A stretch of DNA of 64,000 nucleotides from positions 1 to 64,000 of the IMG/VR virus record IMGVR_UViG_3300047494_000058; one strand, given 5' to 3'. Position 1 is the stretch's first letter; each line of letters begins with the position of its first letter. The translations under genes and the position numbers were made by a program. Below, one piece after another: positions 35,357 through 47,631 of the stretch. The notes under the pieces are model-generated. The model was not told the DNA's origin, did not search any database, and saw nothing but the letters and a program-made list of their open reading frames with translations. The stretch comes from a virus.

Positions 35357-35657
35357 TATCCTCTATATGGTACGGGTGATCTTTCGGCTTCAAACAGATG
35401 TGACATATCTTCGAACGGACGCGCTCCATGAAAACATGCTTGAGATCGCGCTGGAATTTCTTCTGTGCATTAACCAGGCACAGATAGTGGAACCTCTCGA
35501 ACGGGTGACCGATGGATACGCGACCCTGCAGCACCGGGTCCTTCCGCCGGCCCGGACGGCCACAGATGTGGCATACCGGACCGGTGGTAGCCACCCCCGA
35601 TCCTAAGGCGGAGGGCGACCCCTCCGCTTTGGCCGTCTTGGGCCTCGTCAGCCTCAC
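35334..35657 (-). CDS. Zinc-ribbon HNH-like small protein
   Basis: 107 residues with two CHIC motifs (VCHICGRPGRR near 30 and ICHICLKPKD near 87). This resembles recombination endonuclease VII-type or treble-clef zinc proteins, but a complete His-containing catalytic motif could not be assigned. Overlaps the helicase gene's 3' end by 4 nt. Zinc binding is likely; a nuclease role is speculative. Confidence 0.5.
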   Translation of the reverse strand: MRLTRPKTAKAEGSPSALGSGVATTGPVCHICGRPGRRKDPVLQGRVSIGHPFERFHYLCLVNAQKKFQRDLKHVFMERVRSKICHICLKPKDHPYHIEDSVNEQKM

Positions 35658-37117
35658 TGCGGCATCTCAATCAGGATCAGGGTCTCCATGGCGCGGGTCG
35701 TGGCGACGTAGCACAGGTTGCGCTCCTGTTGCTGCTCCCAGGGCTGACGGGCACGCTTCGAGGGGCACTGGCTGGAGTTCAGCCAGAACACGCGCTTCGC
35801 CTCCAGGCCCTTGGCCTTGTGGATTGTCGCCAGGTGCACGGCGTGGCTGCGCTCGGCGAACATGGAGTCGATGACGGCCAGCAGGCCGGCAACCGTGAAC
35901 TTGTCCTCGTCCAGGCCGTCGATGATGCACATGATGCAGTCGGTCTTGTCCTGGATGTTCTCGGCCTTGTCTTCCTTGTTCTTGGCACGGGCCTTCTCGA
36001 CCTCGCGCTCGGTCCAGGTCGTCAGCTTCTGGGTGAGCAGCTTGACGTCGTCGCCGGCCCGCATACGAGCGATCAGGGCCTTGAGGCCCTGGCCGATCTC
36101 GCGGCCCATGATGTGCGCCGGGACGCGAGCCTTGAACAGCTGGAAGGCCAGGCTGACGAGCGGCTTAGCAGTGCGGCAGACGACCAGGTCCTGGGGCTGG
36201 AACGTGGCCGGCGTGAACTCGGTACCCATGTACCGCACTTCCCCGGCGGGCGCGTTCGGGGCGGCCTCGATGTGGCTCACCCACTGGCGGGCATGCTCGA
36301 CAATGGCCGTCGGGCAGCGGTAGGAGACCGTCAGCGGCAGGCGGATGCAGGCGAACTCCTTGGCCATCGTCGCCAGCGACTCGGAGTCTGCGCCGCGGAA
36401 CCCGTAGATGGCCTGGGCCGGGTCACCGACCGCGATCAGGCGGGCGCCGGGCTTCATGACCTTGCGCAGGATGGCGCGCTGCAGGGCGTTGGTGTCCTGA
36501 GCTTCGTCAACGAACACGAAGTCGAATTTCGGCAGCACCAGGCCGTCGCGCACCGCGACGTACAGCAGGTCGTCGAAGTCCACCTCGTGGGAGGCGTTGC
36601 TCTTCTCCAGCAGCGCCTGAGCGTACTCGACCGCGGTGGAGTAGCTGGCCTTCTCATCGTCCAACTCCAGATCGAAGTGGTCGACCAGGTCGCGCCAGAC
36701 CATGACTTGGTCGATCTCGGTCCAGATGCCGATGCCGACCTGCTTGGCCAGGCTCACCAGCCGGCAGGCGAACCGGCCGTACATCTTGGCGTCCTTCTCG
36801 GTCATCATGCCGTCGACCAGGTCGCGCAGCTTGTCGCCGTTAACGTCGCGGACGTTCTTGTGGCGGGTGACCGCGCTGTAGGTCAGGGAGTGGAACGTGC
36901 GGGCATTGACGCCGCGATTTTTGAGTTCGGTGGCGATCGACTTGTTGAAGGCCAGGAACAACGTGCTGCCCGTCACGCGCTTTAGCGCCTCGACAATCGT
37001 GGTGGTCTTGCCTGAGCCGGCGACGGCCTCGACAATCGCGTTGCCTTCGCCGCTCTCGGCGAAGTTGAAAACATTGGTCTGAAGCGGCGACCAGCTGCGA
37101 ATCATTGAATTGTCCAT
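35654..37117 (-). CDS. SF1 (UvrD-like) DNA helicase
   Basis: 487 residues. Walker A AVAGSGKTT (Lys37), motif II FVDEAQDTN, motif III GDPAQAIYGFRGAD, motif IV-like VSYRCP, and C-terminal VHLATIHKAKGLEAKRVF and VATTRAM. A complete UvrD/Rep-type superfamily 1 helicase, slightly smaller than bacterial UvrD. Probably unwinds DNA in replication or recombination. Preceded by a strong leftward promoter at 37156-37184 and an ATAGAGGATA ribosome site. Confidence 0.88.
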   Translation of the reverse strand: MDNSMIRSWSPLQTNVFNFAESGEGNAIVEAVAGSGKTTTIVEALKRVTGSTLFLAFNKSIATELKNRGVNARTFHSLTYSAVTRHKNVRDVNGDKLRDLVDGMMTEKDAKMYGRFACRLVSLAKQVGIGIWTEIDQVMVWRDLVDHFDLELDDEKASYSTAVEYAQALLEKSNASHEVDFDDLLYVAVRDGLVLPKFDFVFVDEAQDTNALQRAILRKVMKPGARLIAVGDPAQAIYGFRGADSESLATMAKEFACIRLPLTVSYRCPTAIVEHARQWVSHIEAAPNAPAGEVRYMGTEFTPATFQPQDLVVCRTAKPLVSLAFQLFKARVPAHIMGREIGQGLKALIARMRAGDDVKLLTQKLTTWTEREVEKARAKNKEDKAENIQDKTDCIMCIIDGLDEDKFTVAGLLAVIDSMFAERSHAVHLATIHKAKGLEAKRVFWLNSSQCPSKRARQPWEQQQERNLCYVATTRAMETLILIEMPQ

Positions 37118-41905: not shown

Positions 41906-42466
41906 CTATAATGCTCCGTCGGGCCCCAGCGGCGGACATTCGATGCAGTCGCAGCCCGGCGCCTCGCAGTGGTGCGGGTTATCGTGCTGGGTCCAGGAGT
42001 GCCCACATGTGGGGCACGCGGCAGGGCGCGGCAGGTTCGTGATCTCCGGCCCCTCATTGTGCGGCGTCGGTGTCGGGTTCAAGGGGTCGACGCGCCGCGG
42101 CAGGGCCGGATTCTCAGGGTCGTTGTCCTGCTCGCCGGTCGGCAGTGGCGGTATGCTTGTGCTCATGGGTCGCTCCTCGATGTGTTGTGCCAGGCCGGTG
42201 ACCTCGTCGAACACCCAGCGCCTGGCCTCGTTTATTTCCATCTTCTCGGCGATCGCCTTCGCGATGTTGATGTGGTTCATGCTGCAGTAGTCGAGCAGCA
42301 GGATGAAGACGTCGGCCGCCTCGTGCGGGCTCGACGGGTCAGCGATAAGCTCGCCCACCTCCTGGTATAGTTTGAGGAACACGCCGGCCGACGTGCGCTT
42401 GGGGAACTGCCGGCTGGCCCAGGCCGTCACGGCGCGCTGGACGTCGGAGAAGCTGTCCCAGTTCAC
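41906..42466 (-). CDS. mazZ: MazZ-like MazG pyrophosphohydrolase with C-terminal zinc region
   Basis: 186 residues from GTG 42466, which overlaps the purZ stop as GTGA; the upstream frame lies inside purZ and is a shadow. The MazG core shows YQEVGELIADPSSPHEAADVFI: Glu36, Glu39, Glu49 and Asp52, the metal-binding E-x2-E...E-x2-D signature, followed by a MEINEARRW segment. Residues ~105-180 are extra: Pro-rich, then six Cys and three His (CPTCGHSW...CEAPGCDCIEC), probably a zinc-binding tail. In Z-genome phages MazZ converts dGTP (and dATP) to dGMP, the substrate of PurZ. Linkage to purZ supports that role. Confidence 0.78.
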   Translation of the reverse strand: MNWDSFSDVQRAVTAWASRQFPKRTSAGVFLKLYQEVGELIADPSSPHEAADVFILLLDYCSMNHINIAKAIAEKMEINEARRWVFDEVTGLAQHIEERPMSTSIPPLPTGEQDNDPENPALPRRVDPLNPTPTPHNEGPEITNLPRPAACPTCGHSWTQHDNPHHCEAPGCDCIECPPLGPDGAL

Positions 42467-43608
42467 TTGAACCACCTGCTGAAGCTGCCCTGGCTGAGCC
42501 ACTGCGCGGTGAACACGTCGTCCACATAGATCGCGTCCGCGGCTGTGGGCCCGAACGTGAGGATGCGCGGCCGGACGCCGGTCCAACTCTCAATCTCGAC
42601 CAGCCACTTGGACAGCTTCTCGCCGATGTTCTGCCCGTACTCGGGCTGCGGCGCCACATAGTCGGCAAACGTCAGTACCAGGTGGTTGGGGCTGCAGATC
42701 CAGGCGGCCTCGCGGGCCTGCTGAGCGCTGAACGTGAACACGCGCCGCGGCAGCCGAGTTACGGTCGTGAGTTCGGGCTCGCGGCCGAGGTCGGCCTGCC
42801 AGTCAAGTTCTGTCTGGTCGTCGTAGCATGCGCCGGACGTTCCGACGAGGCTTCCGTCGGCCGCGTCGTAGCGATTCGCTACTCTGATGGGGAATGTGCG
42901 CATCGTGCCCCAGACGGTGGCCCCCCGTGCGGTGTCGAACGGTATCCTGCAGTCGGCCAGCAGCTGCGTCACGCTGACGTCGCGCGAGGTCGTGTGCGGC
43001 CAGAACTTGGTGTGGCTGCCCAGCGAGAACCCCTGGGCGCCCTCGATCAGGATGTGCCGGGCGGTCGCGACCTCGGAGTTGTACAACTGCTCGGACACGC
43101 AGAACTGCACGTCAATCATCGCCAGCGCCTTCTGGATGTCGCGATACAGGGCCATCGGGGCGTCGCGGGCCAGCGGCGACTTGTACGGGTCGCGCCAGAT
43201 CTTGTCGATGGTCGCGGCCGAGGTGCCCTTCATCGTGGAGCCGATGCGCGCCAGCACCTTCTCGGCCTCGGCGTGCCGCGGCTGCAGGATGCAGGCGTTG
43301 GGGTGAATCACGATACGCTTACCGGCCAGGTAGCTGCGGGCCGCCTTGGCCTCGGCCAGCAGCGAGTCCAGGTTCACCACCGACCCGGGGCCGATCAGCT
43401 GCGTGCACACGCTGTGGCACACCAGGCTGTTGGCCAGCATTGTGTGCACGAACTTGTGGCCCGCGGCGTTGATCGCCGTGTGGCCGGCGTTCGGGCCCCA
43501 AGCCGTCATCGCCACGTCGGGCTGCAGCTGTTCGCCCAGGAGGTGTGCCAGCGCGCCCTTACCGGTGCTGCCGTACTGCATATCGACCACTATATCAAGC
43601 TTTGTCAT
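42463..43608 (-). CDS. purZ: PurZ, 2-aminoadenylosuccinate (dSMP) synthetase candidate
   Basis: 381 residues, PurA fold. N-terminal QYGSTGKG (residues 11-18) is the PurA P-loop in which E. coli PurA has W-G-D-E-G-K-G-K. The Asp that acts as catalytic base (Asp13 in E. coli) is replaced by Ser14. This Asp to Ser change is the published signature of phage PurZ, which uses dGMP and Asp instead of IMP. GPNAGHT carries the conserved His, and ILIEGAQGFSLGSH...PHTTSRDVSV is conserved in the family. The product feeds host PurB and then kinases to give dZTP. Length is shorter than PurA (~430), as in phage PurZ. Confidence 0.85.
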   Translation of the reverse strand: MTKLDIVVDMQYGSTGKGALAHLLGEQLQPDVAMTAWGPNAGHTAINAAGHKFVHTMLANSLVCHSVCTQLIGPGSVVNLDSLLAEAKAARSYLAGKRIVIHPNACILQPRHAEAEKVLARIGSTMKGTSAATIDKIWRDPYKSPLARDAPMALYRDIQKALAMIDVQFCVSEQLYNSEVATARHILIEGAQGFSLGSHTKFWPHTTSRDVSVTQLLADCRIPFDTARGATVWGTMRTFPIRVANRYDAADGSLVGTSGACYDDQTELDWQADLGREPELTTVTRLPRRVFTFSAQQAREAAWICSPNHLVLTFADYVAPQPEYGQNIGEKLSKWLVEIESWTGVRPRILTFGPTAADAIYVDDVFTAQWLSQGSFSRWFK

Positions 43609-45446
43609 TTTGCCGTCGCCTCGAACCAGTTCTTACCAGTCTTGCCTTTGCAGAGTATGGGAACCCTGAACTTCAGGGGTGTCTTTTCGCCATCGAACCG
43701 TTGCAACAGGTCGAGGATGTCGACCTGCTTGACCTGCTTGCCTAGCGAGATGCACAGTTCGTCGTGCACCGACAGCATCAGGCGCGAGTCGGTCCCGTGC
43801 AGCATCTCGGCGACCTCGATCATCTTGTATTTGATGATGTCGGCGCAGGCGCCCTGGAACAGGAGCCCTGCGGCCTTGTGCGCGCCCTGACCTCGCGGGA
43901 AGTGCAGTCGGCGCTTCAAGGGCGTAAGGATGTAGCCGCGGGCCTTGGCCACGGACTCGGCGCCGTTGGTCATGCCCTTGATGCCAGGGATCGTCGCGTG
44001 GTATTTCTTGAAGATCGCCTCCGCGGCCTCGCCGGCCCGGAAGTAGCCGCGCTCGTCCACCCAGTAAGGCAGGCCCATCTCGCGCGCCAGCTTCCCCTGG
44101 CCCATACCAAACACCATCGCAAGGTTAATCTGCTTGGCGTTAGCTCCGCCGGTCTTCTGGTCGCGGTTACGCGGCACGCCCACCAGCTTCGACACCAGGC
44201 CGTGGAAGTCGACCATGGGGTCGGCCGCGTAGGCGTCGAGCAGTACGGGCTCCTTCACGTAGTGCGCAAAGCAGCGAAAGTCGATCTGGTCGTAGTCCGC
44301 GCTCAACCAGCTGTTGCCGACGTCGGGCAGGAACAGCGACCGCACTATGCGGGCAAGCTTCACGTCCCTCGCGTGGATCTGTTGCAGTGCGGGCTCGGTC
44401 ACGCTCATGCGGCCGGTGGTCGTGCCGGAATCCGCCTCGGTCTTGGTCTGGTTGATGTTGCAGTGGATGTAACCCTTGTAGCTGTCGCCCAGCACGTACC
44501 GGTTGACGAACACGTCGCGGGCCTTGATCATGCCGCGGATATTCGCGATCAGCCCGGCCTCGGGGAACTTCATATTGTTGAGAGCATGCGTCCGGACCGA
44601 CGCGTTGCCGCCGTCGGTGGGCTCCAGCGGCGTGCCGTCCCGCGCCCGCCACTGGCCCTGGTCGTCCTTCACGGGCGCCACGATCTTGAGCACCTGCGGC
44701 CCTGAGTTCACGTTGACCTTGGAGCCCACCAGGCGGTCGAGTTCGCGCTGGTCGGCCTGGACCTGGCGGTCGAGCTCCTTGGAGGCGATCTCGGCGCGCT
44801 CCAGGTCCACGCGTACGCCGCGCTTCTCCAGGTCCAGCACGACGCCCAGCAGCTGCCGCTCGACACCGCAGATGTAGCGCAGGTCCTGCTTCTCGATCTC
44901 GCGCTCCTGGGCCAGCCAGACGCGCAGCGCTATCGCGGCGTCCGGGCAGGCGTACGTCGCTACCATCTCCTCGGGCGCGTACTGCAGGTTCAGGATCTGC
45001 GCATCCCGCGTGGCCTTGCCACCGTGGGCCTGCGCCAGGGCGCCCCATATCTCGACGCTCTTTTTACCGGCGTCGTACTTGCCACCCAGCGAATCCAGGC
45101 TGTACTCGTGCCGGTGTTCGTCGATCAGCGCCTCGCGAATCATGGTGCAGTCGATCTTGGCCGGGTCGAGCGGACAGCCGGCCTCGCGCAGGAAGTGCGC
45201 GTCGAACTTGATGTTATGGTTGACGACCTTGCGCGCCCGGCGCAACTGGTCAAAAGCCCAGCGGCGCTGGTTCTCGATGCGGATGTCGACGTAGATGCTG
45301 TCGACCTTGGTGCCGCCAGCAAACCAGGCGAAGGCCAGGCCGAACGGCTCGTCCTTCCAGAACTTCAGGCCCGTGGTCTCGGCATCACACGCGATCACGT
45401 GATGGCTCGACAGATCAGGGAGAAGCTTGAGTCGCTGTTGCGTCAC
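43605..45446 (-). CDS. dpoZ: Family A DNA polymerase, DpoZ candidate
   Basis: 613 residues, GTG start. The 3'-5' exonuclease domain has Asp21/Glu23 (DAETTGL), Asp82 (NIKFDAHF) and Tyr165/Asp169 (YACPD). The polymerase domain has motif A SADYDQIDFR (Asp384), motif B ANAKQINLAMVFGMG (Lys438) and motif C SVHDELCIS (Asp562). In motif B the positions equivalent to E. coli Arg754, Phe762 and Tyr766 appear to be Gly, Leu (442) and Phe (446). The 5' nuclease domain is absent. In Z-genome phages DpoZ is a PolA-family enzyme that prefers dZTP over dATP; here it overlaps purZ by 4 nt, so the DpoZ role is inferred from linkage. Confidence 0.82.
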   Translation of the reverse strand: MTQQRLKLLPDLSSHHVIACDAETTGLKFWKDEPFGLAFAWFAGGTKVDSIYVDIRIENQRRWAFDQLRRARKVVNHNIKFDAHFLREAGCPLDPAKIDCTMIREALIDEHRHEYSLDSLGGKYDAGKKSVEIWGALAQAHGGKATRDAQILNLQYAPEEMVATYACPDAAIALRVWLAQEREIEKQDLRYICGVERQLLGVVLDLEKRGVRVDLERAEIASKELDRQVQADQRELDRLVGSKVNVNSGPQVLKIVAPVKDDQGQWRARDGTPLEPTDGGNASVRTHALNNMKFPEAGLIANIRGMIKARDVFVNRYVLGDSYKGYIHCNINQTKTEADSGTTTGRMSVTEPALQQIHARDVKLARIVRSLFLPDVGNSWLSADYDQIDFRCFAHYVKEPVLLDAYAADPMVDFHGLVSKLVGVPRNRDQKTGGANAKQINLAMVFGMGQGKLAREMGLPYWVDERGYFRAGEAAEAIFKKYHATIPGIKGMTNGAESVAKARGYILTPLKRRLHFPRGQGAHKAAGLLFQGACADIIKYKMIEVAEMLHGTDSRLMLSVHDELCISLGKQVKQVDILDLLQRFDGEKTPLKFRVPILCKGKTGKNWFEATAK

Positions 45447-45592: not shown

Positions 45593-45700
45593 TCACGCGG
45601 CGTCTACCAGCAGCAGTGTCACCGTAATGATCGCAATAGTAGCCATCAACCAGATCGCATGTTCCCAGGTGAACTGCGGCCGGCGGGGCTTCGGTATCAT
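45593..45700 (-). CDS. 35-residue single-span membrane protein
   Basis: Starts at ATG 45700 overlapping the helicase TGA (ATGA). Basic/Pro N-terminus (MIPKPRRPQFTWEH) and one membrane span (WLMATIAIITVTLLLV). Second micro-membrane gene of the same length next to the polymerase gene. Function unknown. Confidence 0.6.
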   Translation of the reverse strand: MIPKPRRPQFTWEHAIWLMATIAIITVTLLLVDAA

Positions 45701-47097
45701 GCCGCCCTCGGGAACAGGTATCCGTTCGTGTCGTGCACCAGGAACAGGTTCGTCTTAGCGCGGGTGACCCCAACGTACATTACGCGATGCTCGGCGTCCT
45801 GGTCCTTGTAGAACGACTCAATGGTCGACTTAGTCATTGACGACACCACGACCACCGAGTCCGCCTCCATGCCCTTGGCGCTGTGGATCGTACGCAGGTC
45901 GACGCGCCGGGCGTCCAAGCTCACGCGCTGCAGGTACGAGATCTCGGCGTGATTGGTGTTGATGACGTCGGTGGCCTTCTCGCCGTCGAGCATCTCGGCC
46001 ACGGCGCCGTAGCCCACGGTGTCGGCCAGCTGCAGGCCATACTGCGTGAGCCCGGAGCGGATCACGCGGATGTCGACCGCCTCGAACCACTTCTCCTGGC
46101 GCAGCCGGTGGAACGCCTGCCCGGAGCGCTTCTGCAGCGGCGAGTTGCCGACATCGGTTACGAACGGCACGAGTTCCTCGGTGAGCAGCCGCACGTACTT
46201 GGCGCGCGAATATTTGTTCCTGAACAGGATCATCATGGAGTTGCCGCGGTACAGGTCGCGCAGCATGGGCTTGTCGAGCGCGACGCCGGACGCGACGCGC
46301 CCCTCCGCCGGCCGGGGCCTGTACTCCTTGTGCTGGCGGGCCGACATCTTGGACGCGATCGCCTGAGCCAGCGAGTGCACGGCCGAGGGCACGCGGTACG
46401 ACTGCGATAGCACCTTGACCTCGGAGTCATGCTTCTCGGCGAAGCGTGCCATGCCGTGCGGGTCGGCGCCGGTCCACTGGAAGATCGCCTGGTCGTCGTC
46501 GCCGGCCACGGTCACGTCGTCGCACACTTCGAGCATGCGCTCGACCACGGCCCAGTGCAGCGGCGTCAGGTCCTGCGCCTCGTCGATCACCAGCGAGCCC
46601 AGGCGCGCGACGAACCCGCGCTCGACGGTCATGGTAAGCATGTCTGTGTAATCCACAAATCCAAACGCATCCTTCCATTCTCGATAGGCGTGTACGAAAC
46701 GCCTAAAATCTGTACGGCTGCCGACTGCACCATAAGCCTCAAAAGCGGCGTCATCAGTGATTCCGACGGTGCGAGCGAAACTGTTAACGTGAAAATAGGT
46801 CCGGAGTTCACTCGGCTTCTCCTCATCGGCCTCCAGGATGAACCCGGTGCGCTTGCAGAACGACTCCAGGTTGTGGTCGGACACGACCTGCGCCCGCGAC
46901 AGACCCAGCGCCCGGAAACACAAGCTGTGGATCGTTGACGCCTTCCAGTCGATGCCGGTTTTCTTGAGTTCCTGATACTGCGCCGACGACGTCGCCGCCT
47001 GCGCCGCGGTGCGGGTATGCGAGCAAAACGTCACCGTGCCGTGGCGCTCCAGCGAGCGCTGTACAAGATAGGTCGTTTTTCCTGTGCCCGGCATCAT
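45697..47097 (-). CDS. SF1 DNA helicase, N-terminus disrupted at Walker A
   Basis: 466 residues if started at ATG 47097. Walker A PGTGKTT at residues 3-9, SHTRTAA, motif II VIDEAQDLT, GDDDQAIFQWTGAD, LSQSYRVP, and C-terminal TIHSAKGMEADSVVV and YVGVTRAK. These define an SF1 helicase (UvrD/Dda-like). The first strand before Walker A is missing from this reading. In another frame immediately upstream, GTG 47135 (AAGAGG 7 nt upstream) gives GKIPNHTVFGPP then TGA. Removing 8 nt (ATGATGCC) would fuse this to GTGKTT in frame. The gene is either interrupted, or restarts at the ATGATG created there. Confidence 0.75.
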   Translation of the reverse strand: MMPGTGKTTYLVQRSLERHGTVTFCSHTRTAAQAATSSAQYQELKKTGIDWKASTIHSLCFRALGLSRAQVVSDHNLESFCKRTGFILEADEEKPSELRTYFHVNSFARTVGITDDAAFEAYGAVGSRTDFRRFVHAYREWKDAFGFVDYTDMLTMTVERGFVARLGSLVIDEAQDLTPLHWAVVERMLEVCDDVTVAGDDDQAIFQWTGADPHGMARFAEKHDSEVKVLSQSYRVPSAVHSLAQAIASKMSARQHKEYRPRPAEGRVASGVALDKPMLRDLYRGNSMMILFRNKYSRAKYVRLLTEELVPFVTDVGNSPLQKRSGQAFHRLRQEKWFEAVDIRVIRSGLTQYGLQLADTVGYGAVAEMLDGEKATDVINTNHAEISYLQRVSLDARRVDLRTIHSAKGMEADSVVVVSSMTKSTIESFYKDQDAEHRVMYVGVTRAKTNLFLVHDTNGYLFPRAA

Positions 47098-47135
47098 GGC
47101 GGGCCGAATACTGTGTGGTTGGGTATCTTACCCAC
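47092..47135 (-). other. Helicase 5' remnant with apparent 8-nt insertion
   Basis: Minus strand, GTG 47135 followed by codons for GKIPNHTVFGPP and TGA overlapping ATGATG at 47097-47092. The sequence around Walker A fits a helicase start such as FGPPGTGKTT if the 8 nt ATGATGCC are removed. It lies directly after the HNH gene stop (47128-47130). Confidence 0.6.
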
Positions 47136-47631
47136 GGCACACCTCTTCGGCCCGCAATCTCCTCAGTATCTGTGACTTAGAAACGCCGGTTCTGGCCGCG
47201 ATTGCTCGCGACGACAGGCCCTGCCGCCTCAACTCGATGATGTTCGCGTACACCTCGTCTCCGTATCTATGCATGTGGTTGTCGACACCTCGAAAGACCG
47301 GCGGCGCCAGATTCGTGCCGTGGCGCACTTTATCAGCGTGTTGTTCGCTGGCCGTGCCCCACTTCAGATTTCGTCGTCTATCATCCAAGCTATTGCCATT
47401 CATATGCCTACAGCTTTCGTGCGGCAGACGCTCCCGGTCAAACGTCTCCAGCACCAGCCGGCAGACCTTCAAAATCGGCTCTCCTCGGCCACCCACGGAA
47501 CACACGCGATACTCGGGGTTGTGGCCGTCTCGCTTAATACTAAGGGTCTTAATGCGGCCATTCCTACGCACTCTGCCCATGTTGCTAACCTCGACGTCAT
47601 GCGTCGGATGCTTCTTCCATCGCTCAGTCAT
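47128..47631 (-). CDS. HNH homing endonuclease-like protein
   Basis: 167 residues. N-terminal WKKHPTHDVEVSNMGRVRR resembles a NUMOD4 motif. The HNH region is CRHMNGNSLDDRRRNLKWGTASEQHADK, and the C-terminal HTH (IIELRRQGLSSRAIAARTGVSKSQILRRL) binds DNA. Free-standing HNH homing endonucleases of this architecture are common in phages. The gene abuts the helicase gene's 5' end, whose Walker A is disrupted, suggesting insertion there. Overlaps the upstream membrane protein gene by 8 nt. Confidence 0.8.
   Translation of the reverse strand: MTERWKKHPTHDVEVSNMGRVRRNGRIKTLSIKRDGHNPEYRVCSVGGRGEPILKVCRLVLETFDRERLPHESCRHMNGNSLDDRRRNLKWGTASEQHADKVRHGTNLAPPVFRGVDNHMHRYGDEVYANIIELRRQGLSSRAIAARTGVSKSQILRRLRAEEVCRG

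Follow-up and report, generated by a model that had tools for sequence, protein, structure and literature searches.

To our knowledge, gene 60 of phage T4 is close to being the lone well-studied ribosome bypass in bacteria and phages, and according to what Bonocora reportedly described in 2011, T4 mobA and the gene 60 bypass represent a mobile DNA cassette. The excerpts of the literature on T4 gene 60 used here (PMC5009743, PMC3014915, PMC11194080) describe a stop codon after the take-off codon, a matched landing codon and a 5′ stem-loop that guides sliding, as well as an HNH gene next door, and suggest that the site may be shielded against the nuclease. Excerpts of a 2016 review further state that shorter bypass counterparts with matched codons have long been presumed, that in-frame stop hopping could exist with no occurrences known, and that synthetic stop-hops have been made in E. 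coli (PMC5009743 and reference 54 therein).

Here, we describe a stop codon that interrupts the Walker A motif of SF1 helicase genes from many phages and that, as we propose, is hopped over by the ribosome. As far as the excerpted sources on T4 gene 60 and mobA go, the helicase element shares with this system the stop directly after the take-off codon, putative take-off and landing codons that are related in most genes, the 5′ stem-loop, in 9 of 23 genes the HNH gene directly upstream, the choice of a conserved replication gene and the fact that most relatives lack the insert. In contrast to T4 gene 60, in which a topoisomerase is affected, the gap lies in the P-loop of an SF1 helicase, spans 6–8 nt instead of 50, is usually in frame, would involve tRNA-Pro instead of tRNA-Gly and corresponds to at least 11 state changes on a tree, as against T4 alone. 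Take-off would occur after about 9–27 codons compared with 46 in gene 60, so early that an extended signal in the nascent peptide, as in gene 60, is not to be expected. Unlike the synthetic stop-hops of E. coli, the helicase element is natural and recurrent and has a conserved stem. It would resemble the bypassing in Magnusiomyces, by which inserts are rendered harmless, although the latter is, according to the excerpted review, mitochondrial, context-independent and found in many genes (PMC5009743). The best reading is that the helicase element would work like the T4 mobA/gene 60 cassette, though it is widespread, much shorter and situated in a different gene. A literature search, which largely did not extend to subscription papers and preprints, yielded no report of a helicase stop-hop element.

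Helicase Locus of the Window

The window, i.e., the whole stretch of DNA analyzed, comprises 64,000 nucleotides (positions 1 to 64,000) of the 72,224-base virus record IMGVR_UViG_3300047494_000058. On its minus strand, a GTG at 47135–47133 opens the reading GTG GGT AAG ATA CCC AAC CAC ACA GTA TTC GGC CCG CCA, and this 5′ segment of the helicase gene (47097–47135) encodes (M/V)GKIPNHTVFGPP, corresponding to the short N-terminus with terminal GPP found in all uninterrupted relatives. The last codon, CCA (47097–47099), encodes the second proline of GPP and is the proposed take-off codon, with an equivalent CCN in 23 of 23 interrupted genes; it is directly followed by TGA (47096–47094), which closes the frame right after GPP. 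Eight nucleotides on and in a different frame, GGC ACA GGA AAA ACG ACC (GTGKTT) begins at 47088 and opens the main reading frame of a UvrD-type SF1 helicase (45697–47088, minus strand; phrog_1967, DNA helicase). The helicase ORF 45697–47097 is intact and contains the N- and C-terminal UvrD domains (PF00580, PF13361), but Walker A, with the first beta strand before it, becomes complete only through skipping of the gap. The additional 8 nt can be written in two ways, either as ATGATGCC, as in the earlier note on this DNA, or as TGATGCCG (47089–47096, minus strand), the latter consisting of the stop TGA, TG and the proposed landing codon CCG (47091–47089).

Upstream of the helicase, an HNH-type ORF is located on the same strand (47128–47631), whose product is NUMOD4/HNH_3-like with a C-terminal HTH; the NUMOD4 and HNH_3 matches lie under the Pfam cut-offs, and the matched families phrog_1492 and phrog_59 are HNH endonucleases. 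Its stop codon falls within the helicase region, and the overlap with the GTG reading amounts to 8 nt and not to 5 nt as given in the earlier note. The 3′ end of this gene also harbors the 5′ arm of a putative stem-loop, CGGGCCGAA (47146–47154, minus strand), the 3′ arm of which, TTCGGCCCG (47100–47108, minus strand), abuts the take-off codon and is supported by covariation (see below).

The gene order primase-like AEP, SNF2, gp33-like, gp34-like, helicase, DNA polymerase A and PurA is common to the window, L069, L072 and L079. No close relative of the window was found, as a search with its DNA polymerase gave no pattern match in viral contigs, from which close records were possibly omitted. 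Next to the family A DNA polymerase gene (43605–45446) lies an adenylosuccinate synthetase-like gene (42463–43608, minus strand; PF00709), whose product might be a PurZ, from a phage having 2-aminoadenine in its DNA. Another UvrD-type helicase, whose Walker A motif (AGSGKTT) is intact, is encoded at 35654–37117 on the minus strand of the window.

Recurrence of the Interruption in Phage Helicases

Viral contigs were scanned twice for GPP and a stop codon, with 0–14 further nucleotides before GTGK; 22 and 7 contigs matched, respectively, and 24 of these 29 were helicase ORFs. L091, L097, L099, L102 and L112 were chance pattern matches to non-genes or unrelated sequences and were dropped. A protein-alignment scan blind to the insert kept 80 loci, with a readable P-loop in 78 of them and in the isolate locus L126, and contained three interrupted P-loops, two already known and one new (L131). 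Rows representing the same contig were removed (L087 as L070, L096 as L058, L136 as L108, L137 as L088), as were L103 (sequence identical to L089), L111 (same site as L108) and L110 (a truncated copy of L114), whereas the sisters L104 and L106 were both counted. This left 23 distinct SF1 helicases of phages, counting that of the window, with a stop codon directly after the GPP of Walker A (GPP^GTGKTT). The earlier note had described the 8-nt disruption of Walker A in the window, which is confirmed in the sequence, and a stop interrupts the same place in 22 other distinct phage helicases, e.g., as CCA TAA CCA in L058 and CCG TGA CCG in L070, both exactly at the break site of the window. This recurrence at one place of the P-loop is far beyond chance.

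For comparison, 136 uninterrupted sites were collected, all with intact GPPGxGK-like P-loops and long ORFs, which were mostly, though not in every case, checked as helicases. Already in the first set of relatives, a short N-terminus with terminal GPPGTGKT was seen in nearly every helicase with a readable start. One uninterrupted protein, L071, is 94% identical to interrupted L070/L087.

A search of 84,980 prokaryote genomes for the 6-nt stop pattern turned up a single contig (L119), a chance match to a non-gene. Protein-query searches found no isolated phage with the element: an L092-type query, in which X replaced the stop, retrieved 33 isolate records, in whose best-aligned rows the record span was 2 residues shorter than that of the query, as expected without insert, and an L100-type query gave no match. 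When the loci examined were scanned for the same layout (stem, stop and long downstream frame) in other genes, six out of seven strict matches were the known helicases. The seventh, L091 (GAG TAA), was unconvincing, and a reversed control gave 2 matches.

Composition of the Insert

Among the 23 genes, the insert measures 6 nt in 19, 8 nt in two (window and L109), 7 nt in one (L114) and 13 nt in one (L093). In all 19 six-nucleotide inserts, a stop codon (TAA, TAG or TGA) precedes a CYN codon. Of these 19 genes, 16 have the same third base in the proline codon before the stop and in the codon behind it (expected 7.4; permutation p = 5e-5, kinship ignored), and three have different ones. Provided that a G.U middle pair is accepted, an anticodon of tRNA-Pro can pair with CYN, and CTN, the putative landing codon in 12 of 19, could pair only in this way. 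The 8-nt inserts offer CCA/CCG, 8 nt apart, in the window and CCG/TCG in L109 as take-off/landing pairs. Two parts of one protein are split by a noncoding gap that opens with a stop codon, as is the case in programmed translational bypassing.

No fitting landing codon is present in L114 (7 nt) and L093 (13 nt). These two genes carry CCT TGA C (at L114:3362 and L093:3868), which looks like a +1 frameshift site rather than a hop; it is similar to the +1 frameshift site of prfB, CUU UGA C, but unlike prfB has a stem on the 5′ side. A +1 shift at these sites would leave extra residues inside Walker A. Both genes count against one single mechanism for all interruptions.

The 5′ Stem-Loop

Upstream of the stop, 21 of the 23 interrupted genes have a stem-loop whose 3′ arm runs through the Phe-Gly-Pro codons and ends 1–2 nt before the second proline codon, as exemplified by GGGCCGAAGA with TCTTCGGCCC. 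Compared with shuffled upstream sequence, the stem is significant at p < 0.01 in 18 of 23 interrupted genes and reaches p = 0.01 in L089, L105 and the window; by the same shuffle test it was not found in L095 and L101, nor in any of the 136 uninterrupted P-loops (0 at p < 0.01). Ten positions (+4 to −5) are each paired in 19–21 of the 21 stems with enough score. In the 20 distinct stems, standard pairs make up 98.5% of cells, both sides have changed at 5 of 10 pairs, and the covariation score is 0.349 vs. 0.134 after shuffling, a value reached by none of 500 shuffles; slid controls gave at most 57% pairing. In most interrupted genes, the end of the strongest local helix falls between +3 and +9 relative to the GPP codons, and in uninterrupted genes it may lie at any position. 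The upstream folding z-score is −4.03 for the 23 interrupted sites compared with +0.37 for a random 48 of the uninterrupted sites. The stem-loop represents a putative stimulatory structure 5′ of take-off.

In L058, L070, L092, L094, L113, L114 and the window, the start codon of the helicase falls inside the hairpin, often in the arrangement SD-GGGCCG-ATG, and because of this position the hairpin might also regulate initiation.

Selection and Phylogenetic Distribution

The interrupted genes are under purifying selection, as seen both between the interrupted L111 and L108 (pN 0.001, pS 0.089) and between interrupted L087, which is complete and stands in for L070 in the selection and tree analyses, and uninterrupted L071 (pN 0.03, pS 0.559). 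Their downstream ORFs are intact, with 418–961 codons where the contig allows. On a tree of 150 rows, parts of which are unsure owing to long branches, at least 11 changes of the interrupted state are required, each of them enforced by branches with support.

In clade B, four of seven aligned helicases (L095, L100, L109, L114) contain long in-frame insertions, which by the reading of the alignment are putative inteins at other helicase motifs. The helicase would accordingly be a frequent target of mobile elements.

Association With HNH Endonuclease Genes

Of the 23 interrupted genes, 9 (L086, L092, L094, L104, L106, L108, L113, L131 and the window) are preceded by an HNH gene whose end is no more than about 60 nt away from GPP. 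Two HNH types occur, one in the window and the second in the other eight loci. None was found beside uninterrupted helicase genes, where short upstream flanks in some loci could hide one. Within clade A, 6 of 10 interrupted and 0 of 14 uninterrupted genes have an HNH gene (Fisher p = 0.0016, with inputs counted by hand and kinship ignored). L104 vs. L088 and L094 vs. L098 represent clean presence/absence of the HNH gene (about 490 nt). Since both members of each pair keep the cassette, it can exist without HNH; the reverse, HNH without cassette, was never seen.

The comparison of L104 with L106 was considered as the footprint of a mobile unit and rejected, as L106 ends early and the aligned profile is that of sister phages. 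These sisters, about 97% identical, drop to 82% identity solely within the 100 nt that follow GPP, which is perhaps the end of a recombination tract. In L095, the place of the HNH gene is taken by an ORF ending 40 nt before GPP, which matches the Mom family of DNA modification proteins (PF25680, E 5e-18).

Proposed Mechanism and Alternative Explanations

We consider it probable that the helicase gene is recoded and not dead, with a hop over the stop restoring GPPGTGKTT, and that the insert is linked to HNH homing. The ribosome would translate from GTG to the second proline codon of GPP and stall with the stop codon in the A site; termination after Pro-Pro is slow. The peptidyl-tRNA-Pro in the P site would then release CCN and re-pair with the CYN-type codon just before GGN, after a hop of 6 nt in most phages and of 8 nt in the window (CCA to CCG), so that the product would be the normal ...FGPPGTGKTT... 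helicase. Meanwhile the 5′ stem-loop may re-fold behind the ribosome and push it forward, as has been proposed for T4 gene 60. A tendency to shift is reported, in excerpts of one study, for the tRNA-Pro whose anticodon is UGG (PMC4519876). At the DNA level, the insert divides the most conserved stretch of the helicase sequence and would leave the protein unaltered. By this it would probably alter the target of a homing nuclease and let a phage carry, or withstand, an HNH endonuclease cutting there.

An alternative, possible but rather unlikely, is that recoding is real and purely regulatory, with stem and stop limiting helicase synthesis and the HNH gene being a coincidental neighbor. The absence of a detectable upstream HNH gene in 14 of 23 interrupted genes and the start codons inside the hairpin at several loci would agree with such a role, but the presence of the element varies even between close relatives (11 changes; L087 vs. 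L071 at 94% identity) and HNH genes occur solely with the element, as the clade A comparison shows.

Somewhat more doubtful still is readthrough of the stop by a near-cognate or suppressor tRNA, giving GPP-X-(P/L)-GTGKTT with two extra residues. All three stops are in use, the usual 6-nt insert keeps the frame in 19 of 23 genes, and stop codons with CUN behind them are leaky in eukaryotes. However, the frame is not kept in the window, L109 (8 nt), L114 (7 nt) and L093 (13 nt), and readthrough leaves the third-base match unexplained. If two extra residues were tolerated, sense-codon versions, only one mutation away, should also be expected; a control scan with any six bases instead of the stop gave 21 contigs, 17 of them the known stop-bearing helicases and the other four sense cases in non-genes, and hence no helicase with a sense-codon insert at this place. 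Structure is moreover found 5′ of the site, with no folding signal downstream (3′) of interrupted sites, and no tRNA gene was detected in the window.

Very improbable is termination followed by reinitiation at the ATGATG of the window, which the earlier note had brought up on account of the ATGA stop-start overlap there and by which the helicase would start with MMPGTGKTT. Such a product would lack the first beta strand possessed by all uninterrupted relatives, which read ...GPPGTGKTT and do not start in the proposed manner. Reinitiation is also unfit for relatives such as L070, L086, L100, L105 and L107, whose downstream frame lacks a start codon close to the site.

An assembly error or a recently broken gene, conceivable for a virus contig from a metagenome collection, has next to no probability and is already refuted by recurrence as a general explanation, because about 26 contigs share the interruption at the same place with intact downstream ORFs, purifying selection and a covarying stem. 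The 8-nt disruption is thus real and neither error nor decay, and of the four options that the earlier note had set side by side, these two are excluded, and bypass with a link to homing fits best.

Implications

We regard it as an even question whether this is the first natural in-frame stop-hop, in which a compact cassette consisting of HNH gene, 5′ stem-loop and Pro-stop-CYN homes into the helicase P-loop of many phages and is put up with at the level of the ribosome, much like introns at the RNA level and inteins at the protein level. Similar to inteins in helicase motifs, a mobile element would be tolerated at a conserved motif, with the difference that it would be skipped by the ribosome and not removed by protein splicing.

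Helicases of this kind would be cut short or lost by ordinary gene calling. If the proposed bypass is true, about two dozen natural variants with differing stops, codons and stems would provide a ready comparative set, and ribosome bypass would be a recurrent way of life for mobile endonucleases within essential motifs.
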